Below, piece by piece: positions 666 to 16,934 of a DNA stretch of 64,000 bases. The stretch spans positions 62,001-126,000 of the forward strand of contig NZ_VEXQ01000002.1 of assembly GCF_006376615.1 (NCBI RefSeq). The letters run 5' to 3'. This DNA comes from Buttiauxella sp. B2. GTDB lineage: Bacteria; Pseudomonadota; Gammaproteobacteria; Enterobacterales; Enterobacteriaceae. Position numbers and translations under genes: made by a program. The first letter of the stretch is position 1, and every line of letters begins with the position of its first letter. Below the pieces are notes generated by a model. It was not told the origin of the DNA, searched no databases, and saw only the letters and a list, made by a program, of their open reading frames with translations.

Positions 666-738
666 GACACTCTCCTTGCGACAAATTATAGGGTAATAGC
701 GCTTGTGGTTTTTCCACAAAAATAGTTGTTATGGTCTG

Positions 739-754
739 TGCAACTATCGAGCCA
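739..754 (-). promoter_or_regulatory. Sigma-54 (-24/-12) promoter of ygfK
   Basis: On the minus strand the sequence reads TGGCTCGATAGTTGCA. This matches the RpoN consensus TGGCAC-N5-TTGCA at all but one position, with exactly ten bases between the GG and GC doublets. Transcription would start near 728, giving a leader of about 63 bases before the ygfK ATG at 665. A candidate activator site lies about 170-185 bp upstream (926-938), the usual range for a bacterial enhancer. Confidence 0.8.
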
Positions 755-817
755 GGGAATCCGTCCGTAGTGAACAAGAATAATAATTGGGAGCTACTTC
801 TAATATTTATGCTGATT

Positions 818-833
818 TGTGAAATAGTTCACA
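818..833. promoter_or_regulatory. CRP (cAMP receptor protein) site, perfect core
   Basis: TGTGA-AATAGT-TCACA is a perfect match to the symmetrical CRP core TGTGA-N6-TCACA. It lies between the divergent genes ygfK and yqeC, about 65 bp upstream of the ygfK sigma-54 promoter and between that promoter and the proposed YgeV site. It could serve either gene. CRP may act here on a sigma-70 promoter for yqeC, or antagonise the sigma-54 promoter by bending DNA. The sequence match is strong; the regulatory direction is inference. Confidence 0.75.
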
Positions 834-925
834 CTCAGCGATTTGAGAATGAATATCAATAATAAACATCACCTGATGGTGGTGTCGGTTGTAGCTTTAT
901 TAATTCTCATAAATAGATGTTGAAT

Positions 926-938
926 ATCACTTTGATAA
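926..938 (+). promoter_or_regulatory. Proposed YgeV enhancer site upstream of ygfK
   Basis: ATCACTTTGATAA fits the 13-bp pattern WTCA-N3-TGATAA, which is also found upstream of the ygeW and xdhA sigma-54 promoters. It lies about 170-185 bp upstream of the ygfK -24/-12 element. A much weaker second copy (CTCATAAATAGAT) starts at 906. Assignment to YgeV is inferred from the shared pattern and from YgeV being the only sigma-54 activator encoded in the cluster. Confidence 0.5.
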
Positions 939-1172
939 AAATTTTCTGGCAAAAACACTTTTCTTTGAACGCAATCGATTAAATACAAATTGGTTGAAAA
1001 ATAACGTTTTTTAACGATCGTTGTCGTGGAATTTATTAAATGTAGTCGGTAATCTTTTGAGCGAGTTAAACATGGTGAAGAATTGAATTAATTACATCTG
1101 ATATAACTGTTGTATCCAAAGTTAATTCGTTACTTTCAGAAATGATTTCAATTATTTCAAGAGGCGAGAATA

Positions 1173-1967
1173 GTGTTAATAGCCCATATACCTGAGCCCT
1201 TAAATTCTATTTCAGATGGTGAAAGTATAATGCGCCAAAAAACAACGGTGATTAGTATTGTTGGAGCCGGTGGGAAAACGAGTACCTTATTCTGGCTAGC
1301 CCGTGAATTTGCTGGTATCGGGAAGCGAGTGATTGCCACTACCACCACACAAATGTATTTACCGGAAGAAAATATTCCCGTTTTGTTTTGCCACTCCCCC
1401 GACAAACTCCCGGGTGCTGCATTTCCTTCGCGGTCATTTTCCTGTTTTACGGGATGGGTCCCGGAAACAGGAAAAGTGCGGGGGTTTTCCCCGTTGCAAA
1501 TTGATGCCCTGGCACAACGAAATATCACCGATATCTTGCTGGTTGAGGCGGATGGCGCGCGAGGGTATCCACTGAAAGCTGCAGCTTTGCACGAACCTTG
1601 CATACCTCAATCCAGCCATTTCGTTATTGCGCTAATGGGCGGGCAGGTCATCGGCCAGGACATTGGGCCGCAGAATGTTCATCGCTGGCCACTGTTTAGT
1701 GCACTAACGGGTCTGCGGCAGGGGGAACGCTTTGGCATTGAAGCGCTGGTGAACTTCATCAATCACCGTGACGGCTTGTTCAAACAGGCACCCCCGCAGG
1801 CCAAACGAATCTGGTTAATTAACCAATGTTCTCATATTGAGAATATGAAGGACTCTCTGTCAGAGCTTCTTGCTCGCACTGAGCTTGATGCCATTTGGCT
1901 GGGGGCGGTCAGGGAGTTTCCACCGATTGCATGCGTATTACAACGCCATGAAAAGCACGATTACTGA
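1173..1967 (+). CDS. yqeC: YqeC, selenium-dependent molybdenum hydroxylase accessory protein (predicted)
   Basis: This 264-residue protein matches E. coli YqeC (256 residues). A P-loop-like GAGGKTST motif at about residues 31-38 suggests nucleotide binding. A downstream TTTTQMYLP stretch is typical of the family. YqeC proteins occur with XdhC-like YqeB proteins in genomes with molybdenum hydroxylases and are predicted to help build or load the cofactor; the biochemistry is unknown. The start is GTG at 1173, chosen because an AAGAGGCGAG ribosome site lies just upstream (1159-1168) and the length then fits the family. The next in-frame ATG (1230) would leave only seven residues before VISIVGAGGK. 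It lies 21 bp before yqeB and is probably co-transcribed with it. Confidence 0.88.
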   Translation: MLIAHIPEPLNSISDGESIMRQKTTVISIVGAGGKTSTLFWLAREFAGIGKRVIATTTTQMYLPEENIPVLFCHSPDKLPGAAFPSRSFSCFTGWVPETGKVRGFSPLQIDALAQRNITDILLVEADGARGYPLKAAALHEPCIPQSSHFVIALMGGQVIGQDIGPQNVHRWPLFSALTGLRQGERFGIEALVNFINHRDGLFKQAPPQAKRIWLINQCSHIENMKDSLSELLARTELDAIWLGAVREFPPIACVLQRHEKHDY

Positions 1968-1988
1968 TAACCATCTGTTGAGGCATTC

Positions 1989-3623
1989 ATGAAAATTTTC
2001 GCAGAAGCAGCAAAACTGGAGCAGCAAAATAGCCCCTTTGCGCTGGCACAAATTGTTGATAGTCGGGGGTCTACTCCACGTCATAGCGCGCAAATGTTGG
2101 TGCGTAACGATGGTAGCGTGTTAGGGACGATCGGCGGGGGAATGATGGAGCGCTGCGTGATTAATGAGGCGTTACTGGCACTCGCCGAGCGCAAACCCCG
2201 TTTATTTCATGGCCGCATGGCTCGTAACGGTGAAGATGCCGTTGGCTCCGACTGCGGTGGGGCGATGACCGTTTATATTGATGTCCACGGCCATAACCCG
2301 CGTCTAGTTCTGATCGGTGCTGGACATGTAAATCAGGCCATTGCGAAAGCGGCGGCTGCGCTGGATTTTAATATCCACGTTGCCGATGTTTATGCCGATA
2401 ACCTAAACCCTGATTACTTTCCTTTAACGACCCGTTTGTTACAGGCAAAAAGTTTCACTGAGGCTATAGATGCGTTGCAAATTGAGGCTGAAGATTACGT
2501 AGTGATTGCCACCAACAGCCAGGATAAAGAAGCGCTGGATTGCCTGATACATCGGCCCACTAAATATCTTGGCCTGCTGGCAAGCCACCGCAAAACTCAG
2601 ACATTTCTTCACCAATTGCGTACCAATAGCGTACCTGAAGCTGAGCTTGAGCGTTTGCATGCACCGATTGGTTTTAATATTGGGGCAGAAACCCCGCAGG
2701 AAATTGCTATCAGCATCCTGGCGGAAATTGTTCAGTACCGTCATCAAGCCCCGGGTGGCCCGATGAAAACACCTGAAACGGTAGGGCGGTTGGTGGTTAT
2801 TCGCGGTGCGGGCGATATTGCGACTGGCGTAGCACTTCGCCTTTATCATTCTGGTTTCCGTGTGGTGATGCTGGAAATGGCAAAGCCGACGGTAATCCGC
2901 TGTTCGGTGGCTTTTGCTCAGGCAATGTTTAACGGTGAAGTAAGTGTGGAAGGTGTTAAAGCCCGCCACGCGGCGAGTGTTGATGAGGTTCCTGCACTTT
3001 TACGTGCCGGTATCATTCCGATATTAGCTGATGAAAAAGCGAGTTTGCTGCCAATGCTGAGGCCCGATGGTGTGGTGGACGCGATTTTGGCCAAAGTGAA
3101 TAAAGGCACGCACCGGGGTATGGCTCCTGTGACGATTGCATTAGGGCCTGGTTTTGAAGCTGGAAAAGACTGCGACGCGGTGATTGAAACCAATCGTGGG
3201 CATTATCTGGGGCGGGTTATTTATCAGGGGCACGCGCAGGCTAATACGGGGATCCCTGGAAATATTAATGGTGAAACGACGCGGCGGGTAATGCGAGCCG
3301 CTGTCGCGGGAAAATTCCGTTGTAATGTGAAGCTGGGCGATATGGTGAATGAAGGGGATATTGTGGCCTGGCTTGGCGACACACCCGTGCTTGCGCCATT
3401 AAGCGGAATGGTGCGCGGTTTGCTCAATGACGGTTTGAGTGTAACGGTTGGTTTTAAAATTGGCGATGTTGACCCGCGAGGTATTGCGGCAGATTTTACC
3501 ACCGTGTCGGATAAAGCCCGCGCCATTGGCGGTGCCGTTCTGGAAGCGATGATGGCGTTACCGCAAAAGCAGACTCCAGTGACCAGCAAGGTACCGATTC
3601 GGGAAGATGCATTGGTGGGATAG
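1989..3623 (+). CDS. yqeB: YqeB, XdhC-like molybdenum hydroxylase maturation protein (two-domain)
   Basis: This 544-residue protein is collinear with E. coli YqeB (541). The first half (about 1-250) is XdhC/CoxI-like, with an N-terminal conserved block (AQIVDSRGSTPRHSAQM) and a Rossmann-type LVLIGAGHVNQAI motif near residue 105. XdhC proteins insert or sulfurate the molybdenum cofactor in hydroxylases. The second half starts with another dinucleotide-type motif (VVIRGAGDIATGVA) and belongs to the EF2563 family tied to selenium-dependent hydroxylases. The protein therefore looks like a natural fusion of two accessory modules. It follows yqeC closely and is convergent with yqeA across a shared terminator. 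Likely clients are XdhABC here or an XdhD-type enzyme outside the window. Confidence 0.9.
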   Translation: MKIFAEAAKLEQQNSPFALAQIVDSRGSTPRHSAQMLVRNDGSVLGTIGGGMMERCVINEALLALAERKPRLFHGRMARNGEDAVGSDCGGAMTVYIDVHGHNPRLVLIGAGHVNQAIAKAAAALDFNIHVADVYADNLNPDYFPLTTRLLQAKSFTEAIDALQIEAEDYVVIATNSQDKEALDCLIHRPTKYLGLLASHRKTQTFLHQLRTNSVPEAELERLHAPIGFNIGAETPQEIAISILAEIVQYRHQAPGGPMKTPETVGRLVVIRGAGDIATGVALRLYHSGFRVVMLEMAKPTVIRCSVAFAQAMFNGEVSVEGVKARHAASVDEVPALLRAGIIPILADEKASLLPMLRPDGVVDAILAKVNKGTHRGMAPVTIALGPGFEAGKDCDAVIETNRGHYLGRVIYQGHAQANTGIPGNINGETTRRVMRAAVAGKFRCNVKLGDMVNEGDIVAWLGDTPVLAPLSGMVRGLLNDGLSVTVGFKIGDVDPRGIAADFTTVSDKARAIGGAVLEAMMALPQKQTPVTSKVPIREDALVG

Positions 3624-3650
3624 CGCTGATATTATTATGAAATAAAATAA

Positions 3651-3685
3651 AAAGGGTGGATAAAGCTAGCGCTTATCCACCCTTT
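3651..3685. terminator. Bidirectional terminator between convergent yqeB and yqeA
   Basis: A perfect 13-bp inverted repeat (AAAGGGTGGATAA at 3651-3663 and its complement at 3673-3685) surrounds a 9-base loop. An A-rich run on the left gives a U-rich tail for the leftward yqeA transcript. The rightward yqeB transcript ends with UUUAC, a weaker tail. Confidence 0.8.
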
Positions 3686-3710
3686 ACTTGAATTCCAAAA
3701 TACTAGCCAG

Positions 3711-4643
3711 CTACTGGCAAATCACGGTTCCCGTTTTCCCTTCGATACCTTCTTTGGCTTTCTCAAGCACAGTGATCAGCGTTTCTCGTCCGGGACGGCT
3801 GGCCGCAAATGCTACGGCGGCTTCTACTTTCGGTAACATCGAACCTTTGGCGAAATGCCCTTCGTTGATAAAGCGCTCTGCGTCATTCAGGCTCAGGCGA
3901 TCCAGCCATTGCTCGGTTGGCTTGCCGTAGTTAATCGCCACTTTTTCTACGGCGGTGAGGATGATCAGCATGTCGGCGTTGATCATCTCTGCAAGCCGAG
4001 CACTTGCCCAATCTTTGTCGATAACCGCGTTGGCACCGCGTAAATGGTTACCTTCACGGATCACCGGAATACCACCACCGCCAACGGTTATCACCAGTTG
4101 CCCGGCAGCTAACATCGCTTTTACCGTTTCTTTTTCGATGATGTCGACAGGTTTGGGTGATGCCACCACGCGCCGCCATCCTCGACCGGAGTCTTCCATC
4201 ATCTGGTGGCCGTTTGCCATCAGAATTCGGGCTTCTTCGTGTGTAAAGAAAGAACCAATGGGTTTGGTCGGGTTGAGGAAAGCGGGGTCGTTTTTGTTGA
4301 CTTCTACTTGAGTAATAATTGTTGCCACTGGGACTTCCAGCCCGCGCAGATGAAGCTCTTCACGCAGGGCGTTTTGCAGATCATAACCAATATAGCCCTG
4401 GCTTAGTGCCACGCACACAGACATGGGTAACATCGGTGTATGGGCTTCGGTTTTGGCTGCGGCTTCAAATGCTCGGTTAATCATGCCAACCTGCGGGCCG
4501 TTACCATGTGTCAGTACAACTTTATGTCCTTGTTCAATCAAATCAACAATGGCGCGAGCGGTAATTTTCACCGCGACCATTTGCTCTGCCAGGCCATCGC
4601 CTAAAGCGTTGCCTCCCAAAGCCAGTACGATTGTTTTTTTCAT
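3711..4643 (-). CDS. yqeA: Carbamate kinase-like protein YqeA
   Basis: This 310-residue protein has the same length as E. coli YqeA and matches it throughout. It starts with VLALGGNALGDG, the carbamate-kinase signature of the amino-acid kinase fold, and has GNGPQVGM, TVGGGGIPV and a late KGSMLPKVEAA segment. The family makes ATP and carbamate from carbamoyl phosphate and ADP, or the reverse. It is the last gene of the leftward unit ygeW-ygeX-ygeY-hyuA-yqeA. The first gene, ygeW, encodes a carbamoyltransferase, so an ATP-yielding end step of purine ring breakdown is the natural reading. That coupling is inference from context. Confidence 0.92.
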   Translation of the reverse strand: MKKTIVLALGGNALGDGLAEQMVAVKITARAIVDLIEQGHKVVLTHGNGPQVGMINRAFEAAAKTEAHTPMLPMSVCVALSQGYIGYDLQNALREELHLRGLEVPVATIITQVEVNKNDPAFLNPTKPIGSFFTHEEARILMANGHQMMEDSGRGWRRVVASPKPVDIIEKETVKAMLAAGQLVITVGGGGIPVIREGNHLRGANAVIDKDWASARLAEMINADMLIILTAVEKVAINYGKPTEQWLDRLSLNDAERFINEGHFAKGSMLPKVEAAVAFAASRPGRETLITVLEKAKEGIEGKTGTVICQ

Positions 4644-4692
4644 CCCTACCTCGTTTGCAGATTGGTGGTTTATTTTTAAAAAAATTAGCGTG

Positions 4693-6090
4693 TTAAAAAT
4701 CTGAATAGTTAAACGGTTGGCGTTTCAAAAAATGCCCGCGCCCTGCGGTTCCGGTAAATTTCCCCTGGCTCCAGAGTGTTTCTCCGCGTGACAAGGTGTG
4801 GCGGATTTTTCCCTGGCATTCCATACCTTCGTAGGGGCTGTAATCGGCGTTGTCGTGTAATTCGCTGTGGCAAATTGTGGTGCTGGCTTGCGGGTCGATA
4901 ATCACCACATCGGCGTCGGCACCCACGACAATGCAGCCTTTTTGTGGCCACAAACCAAATAATTGTGCGGGCATGGTGCTGGTGAGTGAAACAAAGCGTT
5001 CCGGAGAAATACGCCCGCTCATGACACCTGCAGAAAACAGCAAAAGTAAGCGATTTTCCACGCCAGGCAGCCCGTTTGGGCAGCGGCTGAAATCGCCATT
5101 AGACAGCGCAACTCGTTGCTGATAAGGGAAAGTGCAGTGGTCTGTTGCGACCACATCAATCGTGCCGTCGCTAATACCGCACCATAGAGCATCTTGATCG
5201 CGTACGTCGCGCAATGGCGGGCTGAGAATAAATTTCAGGGCGTCTTCGCGCAGGTACAGGCGTTCATCCAGCATTAAATATTGCGGGCAAGTTTCTACCC
5301 AAACTTGCTGATGGCGCACTTTTGCCAGACGCAGGTAATCCAGCCCCAAACCGTTGGAAAGATGGACGATATACAGCGGTGCGTTGCCCGAAAGACGTGC
5401 CAGGTTAATCATCCTTGCTATGGCCTCTGCTTCACATTCTGGCGGGCGACTGCGCGCGTGATAGAGCGGGGCGGTAAGCCCCGCGGTAAGAAAATCAGCT
5501 CGCCGTTGGGCAATAACGGCATCGTTTTCCGGATGCACAGTGGTGAGCGCGCCGACTTCGTTAAGCCGTTGCAGCGCACGCAGGATGTCGCTGTCGTTCA
5601 GTTTGTAGAGATAGGTCAGATACAGTTTAAAACTGCTGATCCCTTCATCGACCATCGAGGGGATTTCATCAATGATGGCATCGTCAATATGCTGGATAAC
5701 GCCATGAAAGCTGTAATCGACAACCGCTTTATCACGGGCATAACCGTGGTAAACCTCGAGCTGGTGGTGCAGGTTGCATCCCGCTGGGCCAAATCCCATA
5801 TGGTCAATAATGGTTGTTGTACCACCACACGCAGCGGCGCGGGTGCCGGTAAAAAAATCATCACAGCTACTGGCAATGCCGACATCAATATTAAAATGGG
5901 TGTGAACGTCTATTCCGCCTGGCATCACGTAACAGCCTGTGGCGTCAATGACTTCACAAGTGTCAGGAACAGGAATGTCCGCTGCAATGTGTTCAAACTT
6001 GCCGTTAACTATTAGCACGTCGGCTTGCGTCTGGCCTGTTGAATTCACAACACAGCCGTTTTTAATCAGCACATTTTTTGTGGGATTCAT
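4693..6090 (-). CDS. hyuA: D-hydantoinase / dihydropyrimidinase family amidohydrolase HyuA
   Basis: This 465-residue protein aligns along its length with E. coli HyuA (461), a D-phenylhydantoinase. The binuclear metal site is visible: DVHTH gives His63 and His65, SSFKLYLTY gives Lys155, which is carbamylated in this family, and further His residues lie in TTVHPEN and LYIVHLSN; Asp lies in DVVATDHC. Hydantoinases open five- or six-membered cyclic diamides by hydrolysis, so in this cluster the substrate is probably a hydantoin-like intermediate from urate. It lies 61 bp after ygeY and 49 bp before yqeA in the same leftward unit. The start at 6090 follows a GGAG ribosome site. Confidence 0.92.
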   Translation of the reverse strand: MNPTKNVLIKNGCVVNSTGQTQADVLIVNGKFEHIAADIPVPDTCEVIDATGCYVMPGGIDVHTHFNIDVGIASSCDDFFTGTRAAACGGTTTIIDHMGFGPAGCNLHHQLEVYHGYARDKAVVDYSFHGVIQHIDDAIIDEIPSMVDEGISSFKLYLTYLYKLNDSDILRALQRLNEVGALTTVHPENDAVIAQRRADFLTAGLTAPLYHARSRPPECEAEAIARMINLARLSGNAPLYIVHLSNGLGLDYLRLAKVRHQQVWVETCPQYLMLDERLYLREDALKFILSPPLRDVRDQDALWCGISDGTIDVVATDHCTFPYQQRVALSNGDFSRCPNGLPGVENRLLLLFSAGVMSGRISPERFVSLTSTMPAQLFGLWPQKGCIVVGADADVVIIDPQASTTICHSELHDNADYSPYEGMECQGKIRHTLSRGETLWSQGKFTGTAGRGHFLKRQPFNYSDF

Positions 6091-6113
6091 GGGGGGAACT
6101 CCATCACTAACAG

Positions 6114-6137
6114 GCTCCGCTGGTGACCCAACGGAGC
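6114..6137 (-). other. Intercistronic hairpin between ygeY and hyuA
   Basis: A 6-bp inverted repeat (GCTCCG at 6114-6119, CGGAGC at 6132-6137) lies in the short ygeY-hyuA gap. No U-run follows, so it is not a terminator; it may stabilise one mRNA end or set relative expression. Evidence is only the repeat. Confidence 0.35.
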
Positions 6138-6151
6138 ACGGTCAGCAAAAA

Positions 6152-7369
6152 TTATTTCTTCAATTCAGATAAATAGGTCAACGGAATCGAGGCGTAAAGA
6201 GCAGCACAGGTAACCAAGTGATCTTTCCAGGTTTTTTCATTTGGTGCATGAGCTTCAGGTTCTTTGCCCGGGCCAAAACCGATGACCGGAATACCGTGAC
6301 GGCCCATGATGGAAACGCCGTTGGTGGAGAAAGTCCATTTGTCCACGACCGGATCTTTTTGGAACAGGCCCTGGTAGGCTTTGCTGAGGGTTTTAACCGT
6401 GATGTGGTCTTCTTCCACTTTCCAGGTTGGGAAGTAGCATTCGGTTGGATACACAAGGCCAGTCCACGATGGGCGATCGTACTGGTACATAGAAACAGTC
6501 GCTTTGGCGGCTTTTACAGAGTCGAGTGCGCGGATTTCTTCAAGTGCACCTTCCCATGATTCGCCCCAGGTTAAACGACGGTCAATGGAGACGGCGCAGC
6601 TATCTGCCACAGCACAACGGCTAGGTGAGGTGAAGAAGATTTCAGAGACGGTTAGCGTACCTTTGCCAAGGAAGTCGTCATTACCTAAACGCATGTTCAA
6701 CTGTTGAAGCTCGTTAAGGATTGGCCCCATTTTGAAGATGGCGTTATCACCACGCTCCGGTGCTGAGCCGTGGCAACTCACACCCTGAACGTCGATGCGG
6801 ATTTCCATGCGCCCGCGTTGGCCGCGATAAATCTGGCAATCTGTGGGTTCGGTACTGACGACGAATTCCGGGCGAATACCCGATTGTTCAATGATGTATT
6901 GCCAGCATAGGCCGTCGCAGTCTTCTTCCTGAACAGTGCCGGTAACCAGCAGGGTGTACTGATCTTCAAGCCCTAAATCTTTGATGATTTTACCAGCGTA
7001 GACCATAGAGGCCATGCCACCTTCCTGATCAGATGCGCCACGTCCACCAATCAGTTCTTCGGTTTCCATGCCCTGATATGGGTCGAAAGACCAGTTTTTG
7101 ATGTTGCCGACGCCAACGGTATCAATGTGGGCGTCCATTGCTATCAGGTGCGGGCCATGGCCAATGTAGCCGAGGATGTTGCCCATCGGGTCAATTTCAA
7201 CTTTATCGAAACCGACTTTTTCCATCTCTTCTTTGATGCGATACACGACGCGTTTTTCATCGCAGCTTTCGCTTGGGATGGCAATCATGTCGCGCAGGAA
7301 GCGCGCCATGTCGGCTTTGTAATGTTCAGCTTTTTCTACAACCAGTTTAAATGGAATCTGCTTAGTCAT
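6152..7369 (-). CDS. ygeY: M20 family metallohydrolase YgeY
   Basis: This 405-residue protein matches E. coli YgeY (403). M20 features are clear: [12 protein letters not shown] gives metal ligand His81 and catalytic Asp83, [10 protein letters not shown] gives bridging Asp114, and [10 protein letters not shown] gives the catalytic and metal Glu pair at about 148-149. A late [14 protein letters not shown] segment carries the final His. The family hydrolyses amide bonds of peptides, acyl-amino acids or carbamoyl-amino acids. Placed between a hydantoinase and an ammonia-lyase, it most likely removes a carbamoyl or acyl group from a ring-opened urate intermediate. The exact substrate is not shown by sequence. 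Confidence 0.92.
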
Positions 7370-7413
7370 TTCTTTAACTCCCTAAATGAAACTTATCAGT
7401 GAACCGCCGTGGT

Positions 7414-8613
7414 TCATGCTGTTGTGGGGTACGCGCCTTCCCAAACTACTTCGCGGTAGTGCTTAACGTCGGTATCCCCTTCGGTGCTGATAAGCAACAC
7501 CACGGAGTCGCGGTTAAGCCCAAGTCTTGCCATGAGTGTTTCACGCTGCGGGTGGTAGTGAACGGCTGCGAGCACGCCGAGACCGACCGCTCCCGATTCG
7601 CCGGAAACGATACGTGGGTCTTTACCGAGAGGGTTACCGAGTACGCGCATACCGAGTGCGGCAACGGAGTCCTGGCAGGAGATAAACTGCGTGGCGCAGT
7701 CACGGAGCACTGTCCAGCCAAGCGGGTTTGGTTCACCACAGGCAAGACCTGCCATGATGGTTGCCATATCACCGCTGACGTTAACGATGTCGCCTTTAAC
7801 GCCCGAGCGGTAAAGGCAGTCCGCGAGTTCTGGTTCGACTATCACGGAATGGAGGTGTTGCGCGCCATACACATCCGCCAGATAACCCAGTACACCACCC
7901 GCCATTGCTCCGACACCGGCTTGTAAAAAGACGTGCGTCGGGCGTTCAATACCGAGCTGTTTCATCTGTTCAACGGCTTCGTCGGCAAGGGTTGAGTAGC
8001 CCTGCATAATCCAGGTTGGGATTTTGGTGTACCCTTCCCAAGCCGTGTCCTGCACGACTTCCCAGCCGCGCTCCTGGGCTATTTTCATGGTCATACGCAC
8101 GGTGTCGTCGTAGTTCATGTCGGTGACGATACATTCTGCCCCAAGGTTCAGGATGTGATCCACGCGCTCTTGCGCCGAGCCTTTTGGCATATAAACAACG
8201 GCATGTTGCCCTAATTGCCGTGCCGCCCAGGCTACGCCACGTCCGTGATTTCCGTCGGTAGTGGTGGCAAAAGTCATTTTTTCTTTGATGGTGTTTTTGA
8301 TTTTCTCAAACGAGAAATCATTGATGTCCATCTGGTATTTTTCGCACAGCAATTGGGCGATGGCGTAAGTGCCGCCCAGCATTTTGAACGCGTTCAGGCC
8401 AAAGCGCTGTGATTCATCTTTGACCAGAATTTTGCCGACGCCAAACAATCCCGCCAGTGCATTCAATTCGCAAAGGGGTGTGGGCTGGTAACCGGCGATT
8501 TTCTGGTGAAAAGCGCGGGCTTTACGGGTCTGCTCGCTGGTGAACAGCGGGGATATTTCACCGTTGAATAAACGGTTTTGTTCGATGTCTAATTTCAAAG
8601 AGAAAACGGACAT
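7414..8613 (-). CDS. ygeX: 2,3-diaminopropionate ammonia-lyase YgeX
   Basis: This 399-residue protein matches E. coli YgeX (398), a PLP enzyme of fold type II that converts 2,3-diaminopropionate to pyruvate and two ammonia. The PLP lysine is Lys77 within RFGLNAFKMLGG. The asparagine-rich TTDGNHGRGVAW loop binds the substrate carboxylate, and a glycine-rich AGVGAMAGGVLG loop binds the phosphate. In this cluster it would supply pyruvate for central metabolism after the carbamoyl groups are removed. It follows ygeW by 66 bp, a gap containing a small hairpin. Confidence 0.94.
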   Translation of the reverse strand: MSVFSLKLDIEQNRLFNGEISPLFTSEQTRKARAFHQKIAGYQPTPLCELNALAGLFGVGKILVKDESQRFGLNAFKMLGGTYAIAQLLCEKYQMDINDFSFEKIKNTIKEKMTFATTTDGNHGRGVAWAARQLGQHAVVYMPKGSAQERVDHILNLGAECIVTDMNYDDTVRMTMKIAQERGWEVVQDTAWEGYTKIPTWIMQGYSTLADEAVEQMKQLGIERPTHVFLQAGVGAMAGGVLGYLADVYGAQHLHSVIVEPELADCLYRSGVKGDIVNVSGDMATIMAGLACGEPNPLGWTVLRDCATQFISCQDSVAALGMRVLGNPLGKDPRIVSGESGAVGLGVLAAVHYHPQRETLMARLGLNRDSVVLLISTEGDTDVKHYREVVWEGAYPTTA

Positions 8614-8655
8614 AACTTAACCTCATTTAGCAAAAGAGGATTTGCTGGAGGAGAC

Positions 8656-8672
8656 TCTGGCCTCAGGCCAGA
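8656..8672 (-). other. Hairpin between ygeW and ygeX
   Basis: TCTGGCC and GGCCAGA form a perfect 7-bp stem around a three-base loop just after the ygeW stop codon. No U-tract follows on the minus strand, so readthrough to ygeX is expected. It may protect the upstream ygeW message or act as a weak attenuator. Confidence 0.45.
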
Positions 8673-8679
8673 ATCCATG

Positions 8680-9867
8680 TTATTTGACGCGTTTCGCAGC
8701 ATCTTTAAGCAGTTGCTCAAGTACCTGGCCCGGTTTGGCGTATTTGCGCGACAGGATCATCGCGGCAATGATGTACGGTTTCCAGCTAGCTTCTTTGTAG
8801 GTTTCGATGCGGTATTTTTCGAACACAGTTTCGGTGACTTCACCTTCTTTGCACGAAACGCCAGAGATATCCGCAGGTAGACAGTGCATATACAGCGCTT
8901 CGCCATCGCGAGTGAGCTTCATCATATCTTCGGTGCAATGCCAGTTTTTATGCTTGGCATTTTGCGCAAGACACTGCTGTTCCAACGCTTTCAGACCGTC
9001 GTGGTCGTTGGCACGCAACAGAGTGGTGCGTTCTTCCATGACTTTGTAAGGTGCCCAAGATTTTGGATAAACGATATCGGCGTCTTTAAAGGCTTCTTCC
9101 ATTGAGTTGACCTGACGGAAGCTGCCACCTGAAGATTTGGCGTTGTTTTTCGCCACTTCAACAACATCAGGAATCAGTTCATAACCGTCTGGATGCGCGA
9201 GTGTGACGTCCATTCCAAAGCGGGTCATTAGACCGATGATGCCTTGTGGAACTGACAGCGGTTTGCCGTAGCTTGGGGAGTAGGCCCAAGTCATGGCAAT
9301 TTTTTTGCCTTTGAGATTTTCAAGCGAGCCGAAGTGTTCGCGAAGCCAGGCCAAATCCGCCATTGCCTGGGTTGGGTGGTCGATATCGCATTGCAGGTTG
9401 ACCAGTGCTGGGCGCTGTGGCAATACGCCTTCTTCGTAACCTTCGTCCAGTGCAGCACCGACTTCACGCATGTAAGCATTGCCCGCGCCGAGGTACATAT
9501 CATCACGAATGCCGATGGCGTCTGCACAGAAGGAGATCATATTGGCTGTTTCGCGGACGGTTTCGCCGTGGGCGATTTGCGATTTTCCTTCGTCGAGGTC
9601 TTGCTGTGCAAGGCCCAGCATGTTGAGTGCGGAAGCGTAAGAGAAACGGGTGCGGGTTGAGTTATCACGGAAAACCGAGATGCCCAAGCCATTGGTAAAG
9701 ACGTTGGTTGCGATGTTATCAGCACGCATGGATTTCAGCACGGCGGCTACGTCGAGGACTTGCTTAAGTTCATCCGGACTCTGTTCCCAGGTTAACAGAA
9801 AATCCTTTTCATGAAGGTGAGAGTTAAGTTTGCTGAGATCTTTAATCAAATCATTAATCGTTTTCAT
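8680..9867 (-). CDS. ygeW: Carbamoyltransferase YgeW
   Basis: This 395-residue protein matches E. coli YgeW (396), a member of the aspartate/ornithine carbamoyltransferase fold whose physiological substrate is still uncertain. The carbamoyl-phosphate loop STRTR is at residues 70-74 (FRDNSTRTRFS). The second conserved block HPTQAMADLAW and the C-terminal MHCLPAD motif are intact. It is the first gene of the leftward operon. Run in the catabolic direction on a ureido compound, it would give carbamoyl phosphate for YqeA. That role is inferred from gene order. A sigma-54-like promoter lies at 9954-9969. Confidence 0.93.
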   Translation of the reverse strand: MKTINDLIKDLSKLNSHLHEKDFLLTWEQSPDELKQVLDVAAVLKSMRADNIATNVFTNGLGISVFRDNSTRTRFSYASALNMLGLAQQDLDEGKSQIAHGETVRETANMISFCADAIGIRDDMYLGAGNAYMREVGAALDEGYEEGVLPQRPALVNLQCDIDHPTQAMADLAWLREHFGSLENLKGKKIAMTWAYSPSYGKPLSVPQGIIGLMTRFGMDVTLAHPDGYELIPDVVEVAKNNAKSSGGSFRQVNSMEEAFKDADIVYPKSWAPYKVMEERTTLLRANDHDGLKALEQQCLAQNAKHKNWHCTEDMMKLTRDGEALYMHCLPADISGVSCKEGEVTETVFEKYRIETYKEASWKPYIIAAMILSRKYAKPGQVLEQLLKDAAKRVK

Positions 9868-9953
9868 CAGAACACCCTTTTTTATGACTGGTCACAGGAC
9901 TGCTGTACTGTGCAGAATTAACCCATCAAATCTGTATGAGCTATTCGTTGATT

Positions 9954-9969
9954 AACAATAAGTATGCCA
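9954..9969 (-). promoter_or_regulatory. Sigma-54 (-24/-12) promoter of the ygeWXY-hyuA-yqeA operon
   Basis: The minus strand reads TGGCATACTTATTGTT. The -24 element TGGCA and the TTG of the -12 element are right and correctly spaced, but the -12 doublet is GT instead of GC. It resembles the xdhA promoter TGGCGTACTTCTTGCT closely. A start near 9943 gives a leader of about 75 bases to the ygeW ATG at 9867. Confidence 0.65.
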
Positions 9970-10143
9970 GGTGCAGGAATATGGTTTCCTGACCATGAAT
10001 GGGGAGTGGGAATTGTGAACGCAAACGCAAAAAACACTCTGATCGACTGAATTTACTGCGTGCTATTTGAACCCGAGATAATGCAAAATCAACACGTGCT
10101 TATAAGCTGGATGGCGCACTGGAGCATTATCATCACCCAGCCC

Positions 10144-10185
10144 TTCAAATTGATAACGGCAGACGGTGAGTTATCAATTTGATAA
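10144..10185. promoter_or_regulatory. Proposed YgeV enhancer: paired 13-bp sites
   Basis: Two copies of the WTCA-N3-TGATAA pattern occur here: TTCAAATTGATAA (10144-10156) and ATCAATTTGATAA (10173-10185). The second lies inside a perfect 7-1-7 palindrome TTATCAATTTGATAA (10171-10185). The two copies also form a perfect 13-bp inverted repeat (10145-10157 with 10170-10182) around a 12-bp spacer. The sites are about 180-220 bp upstream of the ygeW sigma-54 promoter and about 170 bp before the ygeV start, so they could mediate both operon activation and ygeV autoregulation. Confidence 0.65.
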
Positions 10186-10356
10186 ATAAATGCGAACTCT
10201 TTTACCCATTAAATTATAAATAAATGTAATTAATCAGGTTGTTGTCAATGTTTTTGTTTGGCGAAATAGTATTATGCAGCGTATATACGAGGCCAGTACG
10301 GCAGAATTATGCTGTCAATGATTGTAATTGTTTAATTGCAAAGGGAATCATCGATT

Positions 10357-12144
10357 ATGGTAGCCGTAAAAACTCAGTCGGTGTTGATGCAAATCCAACC
10401 GACGATCATGCGTTTTGCGAAGATGCTCGCAAGTGTGTTGCAACTGGAAGTCGAGATTGTTGATGTGAATATGGTCCGTGTGGCAGGCACTGGGCCATAT
10501 GATAAGTCGTTGGGGGTGAAGCTAAAAACCAATTCGCGATTGTTGAAACATGTTATTGAAACTAAGAAAGAAAAAGTCGTTACCCATTCGCGTACTGACC
10601 CTATTTGTGAAGACTGCACGGATAAACAAAATTGCCGGGAAAAGGCTTTCCTGGGGACACCTGTTATTTTCCAAAGTGCTTGTGTCGGCGTTATTAGCCT
10701 GGTGGCGCTTAACAATGAACAACAAGAAAGAATAAAAGATAATTTGCGTGAATTCTCAGATTATGTTCAGCATATTTCAAATATCTTTATTTCTAAACTT
10801 CTCGATGACCAGAGTGGGGAGGGTAACGCCAGTAGGATACTGTCAAACCTTATTGATAATATGGATCAAGGTGTATTGATCCTCGATAAAAATAATAATT
10901 TAAGATTTGCGAATGCTGTCGCATTAAAGATATTAAGTTCTAGTCATGAACAATTAATAGGAGAGGTGGTTTCTGCACGAGCGCTAACTTTCCAGGGTTC
11001 ATTTTCCAGTGGACACATGCAATATATTATTTCCTTCGGTGACCGTAGCGAGATAATTATTGGGCAATTGCAAACAGTGCAGGAAAACCAGATATTTTTA
11101 ATGGCGTTCCATCAATCACACTCTTCCATTAGCTCAGAGTCTAGTAACGAAGTCCCACAGATCGAACATCTTATCGGTGAATGCCAGCCTATGCAGGTAC
11201 TGAAGCGGTTGATAAGCCGCATAGCACCAGGTCCATCGAGCGTGATGATTGCCGGTGAAAGTGGCACCGGTAAAGAGGTTGTGGCGTGGGCAATCCATAA
11301 ACTCAGCAACCGTAACGACAAACCGTTTATAGCCATTAACTGCGCCGCTATCCCGGAACAACTGTTGGAAAGTGAGCTGTTTGGCTATGTGAAAGGGGCA
11401 TTTACCGGAGCCTCAACTACTGGTAAGCAAGGATTGATTCAGGCTGCCGACAAGGGAACGCTGTTTCTTGATGAAATTGGCGATATGCCGTTAATCATTC
11501 AGGCAAAATTGCTGCGCGCCATCGAGGCTCGTGAGGTTCAGCCGATAGGCTCTAGTAGGCCTATCGCTGTTGATATTCGTATTATTTCCGCAACCAATCA
11601 GAATCTGGAGAAGTATGTTGCTGAAGGGAAATTTCGTGAGGATTTGTATTACCGCCTGAATGTTATCCCCGTTACATTGCCGCCGCTGCGCGAGCGTAAA
11701 GATGATTTATCGCTGCTGATTCACTATTTTCTTAACCTGCATACCAAACGCATCGGTCTGGTGTATCCGGGGATTGCGCCGGAGGTGATGGCGTTGCTGG
11801 CGGCTTATCACTGGCCGGGAAATCTGCGCGAATTAAGCAATATGATGGAGTATTTGGTGAATGTTGTCCCTTCCGGTGAGGTGATTACCACGTCGTTGCT
11901 GCCGCCGAATATCGCCAACCAGCGGCATATTGTGGTGGATATCAACCGAGCACGCCCTGAGCAAACTTGCGACAGTAATGAACAGCCTGAGCATGGAACA
12001 CATGCGCTGGAGGAGATGGAAAAACAGCTTATAGCCGAGGCGCTGGTGCGCCACGGGAATAAGAAGCTGGCAGCGGACGAGTTGGGGATAGGGATTGCTA
12101 CCCTGTATCGCAAAATAAAGAAGTATGAACTGCTCTCGGCCTGA
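10357..12144 (+). CDS. ygeV: Sigma-54-dependent transcriptional activator YgeV
   Basis: This 595-residue protein matches E. coli YgeV (592), which has been implicated in urate utilisation. An N-terminal sensory region contains a cysteine triad (Cys84, Cys87, Cys93 in PICEDCTDKQNC) and then a PAS-like segment (about 170-270). The AAA+ domain has Walker A GESGTGKE (300-307), the sigma-54 contact loop GAFTGA (347-352) and Walker B LFLDEIGD with Asp372/Glu373. A Fis-type helix-turn-helix ends the protein (about 560-595). The ATG at 10357 was preferred over an in-frame TTG at 10336 because AAAGGGAA sits at the right distance and the E. coli protein starts at the same place. It is the likely activator of ygfK, ygeW and xdhA. 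Confidence 0.93.
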   Translation: MVAVKTQSVLMQIQPTIMRFAKMLASVLQLEVEIVDVNMVRVAGTGPYDKSLGVKLKTNSRLLKHVIETKKEKVVTHSRTDPICEDCTDKQNCREKAFLGTPVIFQSACVGVISLVALNNEQQERIKDNLREFSDYVQHISNIFISKLLDDQSGEGNASRILSNLIDNMDQGVLILDKNNNLRFANAVALKILSSSHEQLIGEVVSARALTFQGSFSSGHMQYIISFGDRSEIIIGQLQTVQENQIFLMAFHQSHSSISSESSNEVPQIEHLIGECQPMQVLKRLISRIAPGPSSVMIAGESGTGKEVVAWAIHKLSNRNDKPFIAINCAAIPEQLLESELFGYVKGAFTGASTTGKQGLIQAADKGTLFLDEIGDMPLIIQAKLLRAIEAREVQPIGSSRPIAVDIRIISATNQNLEKYVAEGKFREDLYYRLNVIPVTLPPLRERKDDLSLLIHYFLNLHTKRIGLVYPGIAPEVMALLAAYHWPGNLRELSNMMEYLVNVVPSGEVITTSLLPPNIANQRHIVVDINRARPEQTCDSNEQPEHGTHALEEMEKQLIAEALVRHGNKKLAADELGIGIATLYRKIKKYELLSA

Positions 12145-12169
12145 AATGGATTAGGCTGTGAAGAGCATA

Positions 12170-12195
12170 GGGAGTTGATGCGTGCATCATTCCCC
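12170..12195. terminator. Probable terminator between convergent ygeV and xdhC
   Basis: An interrupted hairpin (GGGA, then TGATGC against GCATCA, then TCCCC) lies between the two convergent stop codons. The U-run is poor on both strands, so this is only a moderate terminator candidate. Confidence 0.45.
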
Positions 12196-12202
12196 TTGTG
12201 CT

Positions 12203-12676
12203 TTATTGAGCGCTGGATTCACATTCCTGAACGGCTTCAACTACCATCTGGTAGCCTGTACAGCGGCATAAGTTACCTGCTAGTCCCTGACGAATTTGCA
12301 TCACTGTCATGGGTTGGCTACGCGGTTTTGCCAGTAGCGCAGTCGTTGCCATGATAAAACCCGGCGTGCAAAAACCGCATTGCACTGCACCACTCTCGGC
12401 GAACGCTTTCTGCACGTGCGATGGTTTCCCATTCACGCGCTCACCTTCAACAGTGCGGATGCTTTTCCCCTGCGCCCACACCGCCAGATAAAGACAGCTA
12501 TCAATAGCGACGCCGTCCACCAGCACCGTACAGGCCCCGCATTCACCCACGCAGCAACCTTGTTTAATACTGAGATAACCTTGCGCGCGCAGCACGTCAG
12601 ATAACGGCATCGCAGGTGTTACGCTGAGCTGCTGTTTTACGCCGTTTACACGGCAGTCGATAATTAAGGTATTCAT
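12203..12676 (-). CDS. xdhC: Xanthine dehydrogenase iron-sulfur subunit XdhC
   Basis: This 157-residue protein matches E. coli XdhC (159). It carries two [2Fe-2S] clusters. A plant-ferredoxin type site is formed by Cys41, Cys46, Cys49 and Cys61 ([11 protein letters not shown]). A helical site is formed by Cys100, Cys103, Cys137 and Cys139 (QCGFCTPG and CRCTGY). These relay electrons from the molybdenum centre on XdhA to FAD on XdhB. Its ATG overlaps the xdhB stop by four bases, suggesting translational coupling. It should not be confused with the maturation factor also called XdhC in other bacteria. Confidence 0.95.
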
Positions 12677-13551
12677 TGAATTTCCCCTCCAGCTTGTTTC
12701 ACCGCTTGCTCAATAACGCGTTTTGATAACGTGCTAATCAGATGTAATCGGAAGGCTTTTTCAGCACGCCAGGAGGTTCTCGGTGAAACGTCATGAGTGA
12801 CTGCTTCCGCGATTGCCGCCAGCGTTTCCTGGGTGAGCGGCTGCCCTATAGCTGCTTGTTCGGCATGAGCACAACGCACAGGCGTGGGAGCTGCAACGCC
12901 AAAGGCGAGTTTGATTTCACGGAAACGGCCGGCGTTTATTTCGCACAATGCGCTACAACCGATGGTTGAGATGTCCATCGCATTGCGCATAGCGTATTTG
13001 AAACTGGCCGCGCCTTTGTTGCGGTAGTTTTCTGGTTTGAAATGAAAAGCCACCAGTAATTCACCCGCTTCTAATGCCACTTTACCAGGCCCTGTATGGA
13101 AGCCGTTAATCGACGTGAAGCGGGTTCCTTGCGGTGTGGCAATTTCCAGCTCGGTTTCATATATCAGCGATGGGCAGGCTGAGTCTGCACTGGTTGCGCC
13201 ATTGCAAATGTTACCGCCGTAGGTGGCGACATTGCGGATTTGCGGCCCGGCAATCACTGCGGCGGAAGCCGTCAGCGCCGGAAGATGTTGTTGCACAAGC
13301 GGATGGTCGATGAGTTCACTAAATGTGGTGCCTGAACCAATACGAATATGGCCGCTGCCACTGCATGTCACACCGCGTAATTCGGGCAAATCATGAATAT
13401 CCACGATATGGCGAAAGCGCGGGTTGAGGTGGTGGAGCTCGATCAAAACATCGGTGCCGCCTGCAAGCAAACGGGCCTCGGGATTTTGCACCAGCAGCGC
13501 GACAGCGTGAGTTACGCTGTCGGCATGATGGTAACTTTCAATGTCATACAT
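12673..13551 (-). CDS. xdhB: Xanthine dehydrogenase FAD-binding subunit XdhB
   Basis: This 292-residue protein has the same length as E. coli XdhB. The FAD-binding signature [13 protein letters not shown] is at about residues 29-41, and [19 protein letters not shown] in the middle is typical of CoxM/XdhB flavoproteins. It passes electrons from the iron-sulfur subunit to the final acceptor. The gene lies four bases after xdhA and overlaps xdhC, in the order xdhA-xdhB-xdhC. Confidence 0.95.
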
Positions 13552-13555
13552 AGCG

Positions 13556-15862
13556 TTATCCTTTTATCAGCCCAGCGTCGACAAATTCCTGAAACAGGCG
13601 TTTTGGGGTGAGGGGGAGCGTATTGATGGCGACCCCTGTTGCCATACGTACGGCGTTACGAATGGCAGCAGCAGGGGAAATTATCGGCGGCTCGCCCAGC
13701 GCTTTGTGCCCATAGGCCGATTGCGGTTCGTAAGTATCGACAAAGGCGCATTCCAGATCGGGCAGGTCAGGCATGGTCGGCATTTTGTAGTCCAGCAGAT
13801 TAGGATTACGCACTACGCCGCTTTTCTCATCGACGATTAATTCTTCAAATAACGCCCAGCCAATACCCATACCCATGCCGCCGTGAACCTGCCCTTCGGC
13901 GAGTATGGGGTTAAGGATGCGCCCCGAATCATGCAGATTCAGGATACGGTTGATGGTGACTTTACACAGGGGAATATCGACGGTGACATCCACAAAAGTG
14001 CAGCCGTAGGTTGGCGGGTTAGTCTGGGTTTTAAAGGAAGATTCTGCTGAAAGTTGCCCACCATTCTGCGGGTGGTAGAAGGAATCCATTGCAAGATCAG
14101 CCACGCTTAACAGCGTTTGTGCAGGGCGTGTTTCCAGCACGATGTTGCCATTAATGATAGTCAGGTTAATTTCGGGTAGATGAAGCATCAATGCAGCGTG
14201 ATGCAGTATTTTTTGCCGTAAAATTTGTGCAGCTTCGCGCAAAGCTGGAGCGGTAACGTAGCTTTGACGTGAGGCGAATGCGCCAGGGTCAAATGGCGTG
14301 ATATCCGTGTCTTGCGTGGAAATAGTGTGAACCATGTTGAATGGCATACCCATGGTTTGTGCGACCATTTGCGCAAATACGGTGTCGGCACCTTGCCCGA
14401 CTTCGGTGGCTCCGCTTTGCAAATTGACAATGCCGTCCTGGTTTAGCACTAAGCGCACGCTGGAAATCTCAACGCCGACCGGCCAGGTGTTGGAAGTGTA
14501 ACTAAAACAGGCAACGCCTACGCCGCGCCGCACATCACCTTGGGTTTGTAAGCAGGCGGTTTTGCGCTCATCCCAACCGAATTTTTCACGGCCAAGTTTT
14601 AAGCATTCAATCAGTCCGGCGCTGTTTATCGCTCTGTTGTATAGGGTGTTGATATCGCCTTCACGGGCGGCATTTAGCAGACGAACATCGACGGGGTCGA
14701 GGTTTAAAGCGGCAGCGGCATCATCGAGCAATGATTCCAGCGCAAAGACAACTTGTGGCGCACCGTAGCCGCGCATAGCACCTGCAGAAGGAAGGTTGGT
14801 GTAGGCTGTGGTGGCGCGGTAACCATAGGCGCTGCGCGGGTAGAGCCAGGAAATTTTGCTACCTCCAGCGGAGGCAATGGAGTGCCCGTGCGAGGCATAA
14901 GCGCCGGTGTTGGACAACACATCCAACTCAAAGCCTTTTAAAATCCCTTCCGACGAGATGCCGAGATGCGCATCAATACTAAAAGCGTGGCGGGTGCGTG
15001 AGGCGAAGAAGCACTCTTCGCGGCTGATTAATACTTTGACCGGAATGCCACCTAATTTCAGTGTCAGAAACGCCGCCATGGGTTCTTCCAGCACGTCCTG
15101 TTTATTGCCAAAGCCGCCGCCAATGTAAGGCTTGATTACGCGTACTTTTGACCACGACATATCAAGCGCTTGCGCAACGACGCGACGCACAATGTGTGGA
15201 ATTTGCGTGCTGGAAACAATGGTGATGCGGTCGGGTTGTTCCATCCAGGCAAAGCAGGTGACGCCTTCCATATGGCAGTGCTGAATAATAGGCGTCTGGA
15301 AGTTGCCGGAAAATTGGTAATCGGCAGTTTTGATAGCGGCCTGTGGGTTGTTGGTTGAAACCTCGCTGCGTTTGAGCAAGTTTCCACCTTCATGTATGGC
15401 GGTGGCATCTACGGCTAGCGCGGCTTTTGGCGAGGTGATAACGGGGAGCTCATCCCAGGTGACAACCACCGTTTCAGCGGCTTTTTCGGCTGTCAGTTCG
15501 TCGCGCGCGACAACGATGGCGACGGCATCACCGAAATGACGCACATGGTTTGTCAACAAGAAGCGGTCGGCTACGTCTTGTTTTGCTGGTTCCAGCGTCC
15601 AGGCGTGGCCCGCGGTGGCAAAGGCGATATCTGGCACATCTTTCCAGGTAAAGACGGTGATAACGCCGGGTATTTCTAGCGCTGCGCGGTAGTCGATGGA
15701 TTTTACGAAACCATGGGCAATCGGGCTACGAACGTATTTGGCATAGCACATGCCTGCCATCGGGATATCGTCAGTGTATCGGGCTTGTCCTGTGACTTTT
15801 GCGAGGGCATCAATCCGTAAGCAAGGCAAGCCTAATGGTGTCTTATCCGTTATATCTGACAT
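13556..15862 (-). CDS. xdhA: Xanthine dehydrogenase molybdenum-binding subunit XdhA
   Basis: This 768-residue protein is collinear with E. coli XdhA (752) plus a longer N-terminus. It has the family blocks GGGFGNKQD, AMRGYGAPQ, QGADTVFAQM and DPGAFASRQSYV, and the catalytic glutamate at about 724 in LGEPPI. It oxidises hypoxanthine or xanthine toward urate with the molybdopterin cofactor. The start at 15862 is supported by an AGAGGAATT ribosome site seven bases upstream. A sigma-54 promoter at 15919-15934 and paired enhancer-like sites at 16035-16066 precede it. Maturation may depend on YqeB/YqeC encoded about 10 kb away in the cluster. Confidence 0.95.
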   Translation of the reverse strand: MSDITDKTPLGLPCLRIDALAKVTGQARYTDDIPMAGMCYAKYVRSPIAHGFVKSIDYRAALEIPGVITVFTWKDVPDIAFATAGHAWTLEPAKQDVADRFLLTNHVRHFGDAVAIVVARDELTAEKAAETVVVTWDELPVITSPKAALAVDATAIHEGGNLLKRSEVSTNNPQAAIKTADYQFSGNFQTPIIQHCHMEGVTCFAWMEQPDRITIVSSTQIPHIVRRVVAQALDMSWSKVRVIKPYIGGGFGNKQDVLEEPMAAFLTLKLGGIPVKVLISREECFFASRTRHAFSIDAHLGISSEGILKGFELDVLSNTGAYASHGHSIASAGGSKISWLYPRSAYGYRATTAYTNLPSAGAMRGYGAPQVVFALESLLDDAAAALNLDPVDVRLLNAAREGDINTLYNRAINSAGLIECLKLGREKFGWDERKTACLQTQGDVRRGVGVACFSYTSNTWPVGVEISSVRLVLNQDGIVNLQSGATEVGQGADTVFAQMVAQTMGMPFNMVHTISTQDTDITPFDPGAFASRQSYVTAPALREAAQILRQKILHHAALMLHLPEINLTIINGNIVLETRPAQTLLSVADLAMDSFYHPQNGGQLSAESSFKTQTNPPTYGCTFVDVTVDIPLCKVTINRILNLHDSGRILNPILAEGQVHGGMGMGIGWALFEELIVDEKSGVVRNPNLLDYKMPTMPDLPDLECAFVDTYEPQSAYGHKALGEPPIISPAAAIRNAVRMATGVAINTLPLTPKRLFQEFVDAGLIKG

Positions 15863-15918
15863 GGTAATTCCTCTATTCTCAGGAATAAGGTCACGCTTGG
15901 GTTAAAGCTCCTGAGTGA

Positions 15919-15934
15919 AGCAAGAAGTACGCCA
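15919..15934 (-). promoter_or_regulatory. Sigma-54 (-24/-12) promoter of xdhABC
   Basis: The minus strand reads TGGCGTACTTCTTGCT, with GG and GC doublets separated by exactly ten bases as RpoN requires. A start near 15907 would give a 45-base leader to the xdhA ATG at 15862. Enhancer-like sites lie about 100-145 bp upstream. Confidence 0.8.
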
Positions 15935-16034
15935 GTCGTCGCATTCAATGGCTGCACATGGCAGAACTGTGATGGAGATGAAGTAAACAGATGAATGACA
16001 GGGAATAGGTGATTTATAAGACGGCGATTTCGTT

Positions 16035-16066
16035 CTCATAATGATAGGCAGGGATCATTATGATAA
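16035..16066. promoter_or_regulatory. Proposed YgeV enhancer upstream of xdhA: paired sites
   Basis: CTCATAATGATAG (16035-16047) and ATCATTATGATAA (16054-16066) are two copies of the WTCA-N3-TGATAA pattern, 19 bp apart start to start. They also form a perfect 9-bp inverted repeat (CATAATGAT at 16037-16045, ATCATTATG at 16054-16062). The position about 100-145 bp upstream of the xdhA sigma-54 promoter fits an activator site. Confidence 0.6.
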
Positions 16067-16540: not shown

Positions 16541-16544
16541 GCAA

Positions 16545-16838: not shown

Positions 16839-16881
16839 TATTTTATCCTCATCGAGGGAATATCTATCATCTGTTAACACA

Positions 16882-16908: not shown

Positions 16909-16934
16909 TAGTCTTCTTAATCGCCAACAGAATA

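Follow-up and report, generated by a model that had tools for sequence, protein, structure and literature searches.

A conserved palindrome as the predicted operator of the sigma-54 activator YgeV in anaerobic purine and urate gene clusters, with a copy inside yqeC

Gene cluster, promoters and predicted operators

The DNA analysed here, called the window below, is a stretch of 64,000 nucleotides from Buttiauxella sp. B2 (contig NZ_VEXQ01000002.1, positions 62,001 to 126,000). It carries a gene cluster for the anaerobic purine and urate pathway that includes ygeV (10357..12144, plus strand), encoding an activator with a GAF-PAS-AAA+-HTH_8 architecture and a GAFTGA loop. Three units of the cluster are read on the minus strand: ygfK, whose 5′ part occupies 1..664 and which continues beyond the window edge; ygeW (8680..9867), which leads ygeW-ygeX-ygeY-hyuA-yqeA; and xdhA (13556..15862), which leads xdhABC. 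An earlier note on this DNA had placed a -24/-12 sigma-54 element before each of them, and all three are where it put them, on the minus strand: CTGGCTCGATAGTTGCA at ygfK (739..755), CTGGCATACTTATTGTT at ygeW (9954..9970) and CTGGCGTACTTCTTGCT at xdhA (15919..15935). Each has GG-N10-GC or GG-N10-GT spacing. The ygfK element coincides with the 15 most conserved columns in aligned ygfK upstream DNA, and those at ygeW and xdhA were called from sequence and from conservation in aligned promoters.

The same note had described a shared 13-mer, WTCA-N3-TGATAA, at 926, 10144, 10173 and 16054, with a weaker copy at 16035. These copies are all present as placed. The window holds 8 matches to the 13-mer, compared with 0.26 in dinucleotide shuffles, and five of the 8 lie at the three promoters (10171-10185 matches on both strands). 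What did not stand was the extent of the motif: the 13-mer is a one-sided cut of a 15-base-pair (bp) palindrome, TTMTCA-N3-TGAKAA. The predicted operators, given here without strand, are thus 15 bp each. At ygfK the operator, or upstream activating sequence (UAS), is ATATCACTTTGATAA (924..938; also given as TTATCATAATGATAA), 178 bp upstream of the -24 and the second-most conserved segment. At ygeW a half-degenerate proximal copy, CCTTCAAATTGATAA (10142..10156), and a perfect distal copy, TTATCAATTTGATAA (10171..10185), lie 181 and 210 bp from the -24, and at xdhA the proximal TTCTCATAATGATAG (16033..16047) and distal GGATCATTATGATAA (16052..16066) lie 107 and 126 bp from it.

The palindrome in orthologous promoters

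Our sample comprised 65 named YgeV-encoding loci and the K-12 cluster, which provided, window included, the upstream regions of 58 ygeW, 21 xdhA, 23 ygfK and 6 ygfT genes. A scan of orthologous ygeW, xdhA and ygfK upstream regions, as the earlier note had proposed, was clearly positive. Using no prior motif, we enumerated across the 105 non-window promoters all inverted repeats whose half-sites were 4 or 5 bases long and whose spacers were 0-14. TATCA-N3-TGATA ranked first among repeats with 5-base half-sites and was present exactly in 48 of the 105 promoters, whereas the best repeat in each of 5 shuffled promoter sets reached 2-4. Per-site tables gave the 15-bp consensus. The centre of the palindrome is mostly ~190-240 bp from the -24 at ygeW, 105-138 bp at xdhA and 135-178 bp at ygfK; a few loci with a doubtful automatic choice of -24/-12 element, such as L061 ygfK and L082-L083 ygfT, lie outside these ranges. 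A second copy is often found 29 bp away at ygeW, where 23 site pairs among the 58 promoters have this proximal-distal spacing, and 19-21 bp away at xdhA and ygfK.

After removal of near-duplicates, we aligned 41 ygeW, 16 xdhA and 20 ygfK promoters. In each alignment, conservation is highest at the -24/-12 element and at the palindrome, with UAS2 also at the top for ygeW and xdhA, and the main palindrome carries 1.36-1.53 bits per column, the median being 0.55-0.59. A matrix built from 25 unique ygeW sites, window excluded, and applied at a threshold of 10 found sites in 21/21 xdhA, 23/23 ygfK, 6/6 ygfT and 2/2 uacT promoters; the corresponding shuffled means were 0.7, 1.5, 0.5 and 0.3. Control regions gave sites in 3 of 34 (mocA) and 1 of 23 (yqeC upstream), and site density was 3.26 per kilobase (kb) in target promoters versus 0.115 elsewhere in the loci.

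Given the AT-richness of upstream regions and the relatedness of the species sampled, a shared motif might arise as a by-product of intergenic base composition and common ancestry. We give this explanation next to no weight: dinucleotide shuffles yield far fewer matches, the main palindrome stands well above the median of its own alignments, and a coding copy in yqeC, described below, is under wobble-level constraint.

Genome-wide specificity

The 4.97-megabase genome from which the window comes has four exact copies of the palindrome, two of them in the purine cluster, and none of the reversed-pattern control. One of the four is the yqeC copy (1829-1843). Another, on a different contig (C23:181683), was rejected as lying within an open reading frame (ORF). 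The three 13-mer copies elsewhere in the window, at 30214, 30713 and 54084, likewise fall within long ORFs and were dismissed as chance; only 30713 attains a matrix score of 9, and no -24/-12 element is paired with it. The genome contains 37 other TGGCAC-N6-TGCW elements, and among the 30 tested, one had a site scoring at least 12 and none a site scoring at least 14 in the region 60-270 bp upstream.

An intragenic promoter and operator in yqeC

Three promoters, the number given in the earlier note, proved too few: ygfT/uacT and, by way of yqeC, yqeB are further predicted targets. The yqeC coding sequence (1173..1967, plus strand; PF19842) harbours both a sigma-54 element, TTGCACGAACCTTGCA (1587..1602, plus strand; chance 0.01), and a predicted operator, TTCTCATATTGAGAA (1829..1843), 248 bp downstream of it. 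The element is the counterpart of K-12 P-yqeC, which drives yqeB, here a gene for an XdhC/CoxI-family protein on the plus strand (1989..3623). In K-12, P-yqeC has been validated as the yqeB promoter by chromatin immunoprecipitation (ChIP) with quantitative PCR, reverse-transcription quantitative PCR and Western blotting (PMC4591121).

The palindrome is found near the 3′ end of all 33 yqeC genes analysed (34 loci, less L084, whose yqeC is too short), compared with 5.4 expected under synonymous codon randomisation. The per-gene chance under this null ranges from 0.03 to 0.71 and is highest in genes of the Tyr..Asp type. The codons in the palindrome are TCT..GAG (Ser..Glu) in 24 genes, TAT..GAT (Tyr..Asp) in 6 and mixed in 3, and at its symmetric positions the pair is C/G in 24 genes, A/T in 6, C/T in 3 and never A/G. 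The A/T pairing represents few events because its 6 genes all come from Hafnia, Enterobacillus and Edwardsiella. The codons switch together, such that the palindrome is kept while the amino acids change. Among 26 non-redundant genes, wobble information peaks at the promoter, with 9.0 bits, and at the operator, with 8.0 bits, the median being 2.7, and amino acids vary at the operator despite this conservation. The intragenic promoter pattern was matched in 29 of the 34 loci, each time exactly 248 bp from the palindrome, and in K-12, too, 248 bp separate the promoter from the palindrome downstream of it. The five unmatched loci include three from Buttiauxella, and the window element was then located at 1587-1602. 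Since both elements share one coding frame, the fixed distance is weak evidence by itself; wobble conservation is the stronger evidence for the promoter and the operator.

Each of 50 loci has a site upstream of yqeB, both those with yqeC and all 16 that lack it. In 9 of these 16 it lies at -66 to -101 from yqeB and, in the five of them with a matched promoter, between promoter and gene. In another five (L050, L072, L080, L081 and L083), a yqeB promoter was matched and the sites are 50-167 bp upstream of it. Because loci without yqeC retain the site, what stays constant is that yqeB has a site nearby, whichever side of the promoter it is on, an arrangement that fits an enhancer better than a roadblock. 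The yqeC palindrome does lie in transcribed DNA, 248 bp past the promoter, as would be expected if it were a roadblock or repressor site, and it might alternatively be a long-range helper of ygfK. We consider such a role unlikely, though well short of negligible, given the five yqeC-less loci with sites upstream of the yqeB promoter and, with respect to the helper, a site of its own at ygfK in 23/23 loci. The yqeB promoter is probably under the control of a downstream enhancer within the yqeC coding sequence, in which case one 15-bp stretch would both code for YqeC and serve as a YgeV operator.

A different activator of the same promoter would be NtrC, with the nearby palindrome incidental. 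The NtrC consensus is TGCAC-N7-GTGCA. A dyad with two mismatches to it lies in K-12 yqeC ~95 bp past the promoter, and one with three mismatches occupies a similar place in the window; overall, NtrC-like dyads have 2-3 mismatches in the yqeC/ygfK region and three in the ygeW and xdhA regions of the window. The yqeC-internal transcript is, moreover, reported to be induced by nitrogen limitation (PMC4591121). Wobble conservation at the NtrC-like dyad is moderate, however, at no more than 5.2 bits versus 9.0 for the promoter and 8.0 for the palindrome, and K-12 xdhA, ygeW and ygfT/uacT have no such dyad with three or fewer mismatches. We regard NtrC as quite an unlikely driver of yqeB.

YgeV and its co-inheritance with the palindrome

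The YgeV protein of the window is 70% identical to that of K-12 and has a GAF-type N-terminus, an AAA+ sigma-54 interaction domain, a lid and a Fis-type HTH_8 end. The intact GAFTGA loop and Fis-type DNA-binding end attributed to it from the sequence were borne out, with Sigma54_activat, AAA lid and HTH_8 domains found by Pfam. We collected YgeV from 67 sources and excluded L086, leaving 66. In L086, from Kluyvera genomosp. 3, ygeV (L086:10025-11770) matches in four separate pieces, pointing to a broken gene or sequencing errors. The decapeptide ATLYRKIKKY at the end of the helix-turn-helix is identical in 66/66 proteins. Four cysteines of the GAF-type N-terminal domain, C84, C87, C93 and C109 (residues 84-109; window 10606-10683), are also invariant in 66/66. 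They are possibly a metal or iron-sulphur site, and a GAF-type domain with these cysteines hints that the signal may be linked to purines or to redox state.

Among 394 genomes drawn evenly from the order, 16 had YgeV, 15 had YgeW and 14 had both; the mismatches were a YgeW truncated at the end of its contig and two genomes that had YgeV alone, one of which is 51% complete. Thirteen of the 15 ygeW loci were tested, the window's own and one truncated locus being left out, and the site was present in 13 of 13, although 8 of these repeat Aeromonas genomes already counted. Three of the 13 come from families beyond those of the window and the Aeromonas group (f6, f23) and have weaker scores, 13.8-16.9. 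In 8 Aeromonas genomes the fetched ygeV flanks (up to 10 kb, less at contig ends) yielded no ygeW, and all 8 ygeW promoters have still kept the site, at 199-231 bp.

A Salmonella conjugative plasmid (CP053580.1, locus L105) carries a ygeV-type activator together with ygeW-dpaL-ygeY-hydA-arcC, ygfK-ssnA, ygfT, a purine permease and fdhF. Sites are present at its ygeW, ygfK and ygfT/permease promoters, and none was found at fdhF. The plasmid looks like a mobile urate-degradation regulon with the same predicted operators.

Co-inheritance cannot by itself tell YgeV from other cluster-linked factors, and another regulator, global or purine-specific, might bind the palindrome while YgeV acts at other places or needs no specific DNA. 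One paper mentions a native CRP site between ygeV and ygeW (PMC12507026), and in the window a perfect CRP-type dyad, TGTGAAATAGTTCACA (818..833), lies between the ygfK UAS and promoter, where it may be a modulator. The dyad is weak evidence taken alone, because the window has 3 matches with at most one mismatch where 2.2 are expected by chance. As the earlier note had held, ygeV is the only regulator gene that we found, here among 6 window and 7 outside ORFs scanned with Pfam and the homology-matched cluster genes. Dyads 100-240 bp upstream of sigma-54 promoters are the site type of enhancer-binding proteins, and the site accompanies ygeV on the plasmid and persists where ygeW was not found near ygeV. 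Binding by a different regulator is, in our view, very improbable.

Further predicted targets and variant clusters

Beyond the left edge of the window, one intergenic site is shared by ygfT-ygfS and a gene of the urate-permease type (ygfT/uacT), as in K-12; their -24/-12 elements are weaker than that of ygeW. The ygfT promoters of K-12 (L021:35932-36368) and of L078-L081 keep the TTGCA of the -12 and lack the GG at -24, for example TATGCCCGTTTATTGCA; a degenerate -24 with a TTGC(A) -12 recurs at ygfT and yqeB.

On the same contig, ~101 kb past the xdhA promoter, a gene with three RidA domains (L134:3212-4588) has a good -24/-12 element and a pair of sites spaced by 29 bp. YgeX releases 2-aminoacrylate, a RidA substrate, so membership of this gene in the regulon would make sense. 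Among 9 orthologues in 35 genomes (36 less L061), three have a nearby site scoring at least 13 and none has the full arrangement, and the gene is a candidate member only.

A second type of cluster occurs in L078 and L080-L083 (Serratia microhaemolytica, Buttiauxella A111, Cedecea and Erwinia). Its XdhA is 28-29% identical to that of K-12 and ygfT lies beside xdhA; the predicted operator is the same. Gene order also differs around the cluster of the window. The mocA gene, which in K-12 lies between yqeC and ygfK, is absent from window positions 664-1173 and from Buttiauxella izardii (L022), and xdhA adjoins flagellar genes (flgN- and flgA-type; 16118-17594), its K-12 neighbour being actS.

Discussion

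The earlier note's simplest reading was that YgeV drives the whole pathway through one operator, and conservation, generalisation across promoters, specificity and co-inheritance argue in its favour. We estimate at roughly 0.87 the probability that YgeV serves the anaerobic purine and urate pathway as its sigma-54 enhancer-binding activator and acts via TTMTCA-N3-TGAKAA, including on yqeB through the yqeC site; the palindrome is most likely the docking site of YgeV. We infer that a YgeV dimer would bind the 15-bp palindrome at sites that are often paired, 19-21 or 29 bp apart, and that lie roughly 105-240 bp upstream of sigma-54 promoters. Its predicted targets are ygeW(XY-hyuA-yqeA), xdhABC, ygfK(-ssnA-ygfM-xdhD) and ygfT/uacT. 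The AAA+ ring would loop to the waiting sigma-54 polymerase and remodel it. Bound to the palindrome near the end of yqeC, YgeV would activate the intragenic yqeB promoter 248 bp upstream, which would make that site a downstream enhancer.

Several points weigh against this interpretation. A downstream-only enhancer is unusual. The training sites of the matrix were chosen after all promoters had been viewed, and the hold-out is for that reason only partly blind, while the inverted-repeat enumeration was blind; many of the sampled loci are related. Tyr..Asp-type YqeC proteins give a site score of at least 10 with a probability of 0.21-0.71 under the synonymous null. Sixteen other YgeV genomes contain 60 exact palindromes (1-8 each) versus 14 for the reversed control (0-3 each), and for 3 of these genomes the control count is as high as that of the palindrome or higher. 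The bare palindrome is thus insufficient across these genomes, and specificity lies in its pairing with a promoter. We found no site at ybiY, which is listed in the published YgeV gene group. Finally, nitrogen limitation has been read as the inducer of K-12 yqeB transcription (PMC4591121), and this could implicate NtrC.

Much of the regulon's outline is already in print. ChIP sequencing in K-12 placed sigma-54 sites at xdhA, ygeW, ygfK and ygfT and inside yqeC (Bonocora 2015, PMC4591121); the available text on this set gives neither an activator dedicated to these promoters nor the sequence of an enhancer, where we offer a predicted operator. The YgeV iModulon groups xdhABC, ygeWXY-hyuA, ygfK-ssnA-ygfM-xdhD, ygfT and uacT under the putative regulator YgeV (PMC12132413). 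It is based on co-expression and, in the parts consulted, gives no operator, lacks yqeB and lists ybiY and rcsB. In enterohaemorrhagic E. coli, YgeV is known as IsrR and has been studied as an indole-responsive virulence regulator; the text searched of that paper does not mention purine, xdh, a binding site or electrophoretic mobility shift assays (PMC9426417). In Clostridia, DioR is a predicted sigma-54 activator of ygeW-ygfK-ssnA-ygeY, dpaL, pbuX and yqeB, with a DNA motif drawn in a figure (Nie 2019, PMC6615313). By gene lists, on which alone we compared them, its regulon resembles that of YgeV in placing the same pathway genes under a sigma-54 activator; it differs in belonging to another phylum. 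No sigma-54 activator was listed in the fetched stretches of the Enterococcus and Collinsella clusters.

Among enhancer-binding proteins more generally, NtrC, FhlA and FlrC use paired palindromes 100-200 bp upstream, an AAA+ ring and a GAFTGA loop, and FlrC has downstream enhancers. The YgeV system would share with them the paired distal palindromes, the ring and the loop, and differ in its operator sequence and in having one enhancer within the coding sequence of a neighbouring gene. Neither a YgeV operator nor a named activator of the yqeB promoter was found in the literature searched, which leaves most subscription journals outside it. As far as that literature extends, the predicted YgeV operator and the intragenic downstream site with its control of yqeB are new, and only these, because earlier papers had published both the sigma-54 sites of K-12 and the gene group of YgeV.

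Gut bacteria that degrade uric acid are relevant to gout and to microbiome engineering, and a 2025 paper describes the regulation of urate-degradation genes as still poorly understood (PMC12507026). A defined operator would make the regulon predictable from sequence in further genomes and plasmids and would provide a binding assay for a YgeV ligand search. The yqeC site supplies a candidate activator for a validated intragenic promoter and a clean test case for enhancers in coding DNA. If our interpretation is true, it would name the activator that had been missing for a promoter validated in 2015, and maturation of the selenium-dependent molybdenum hydroxylase would be tied to the urate regulon.

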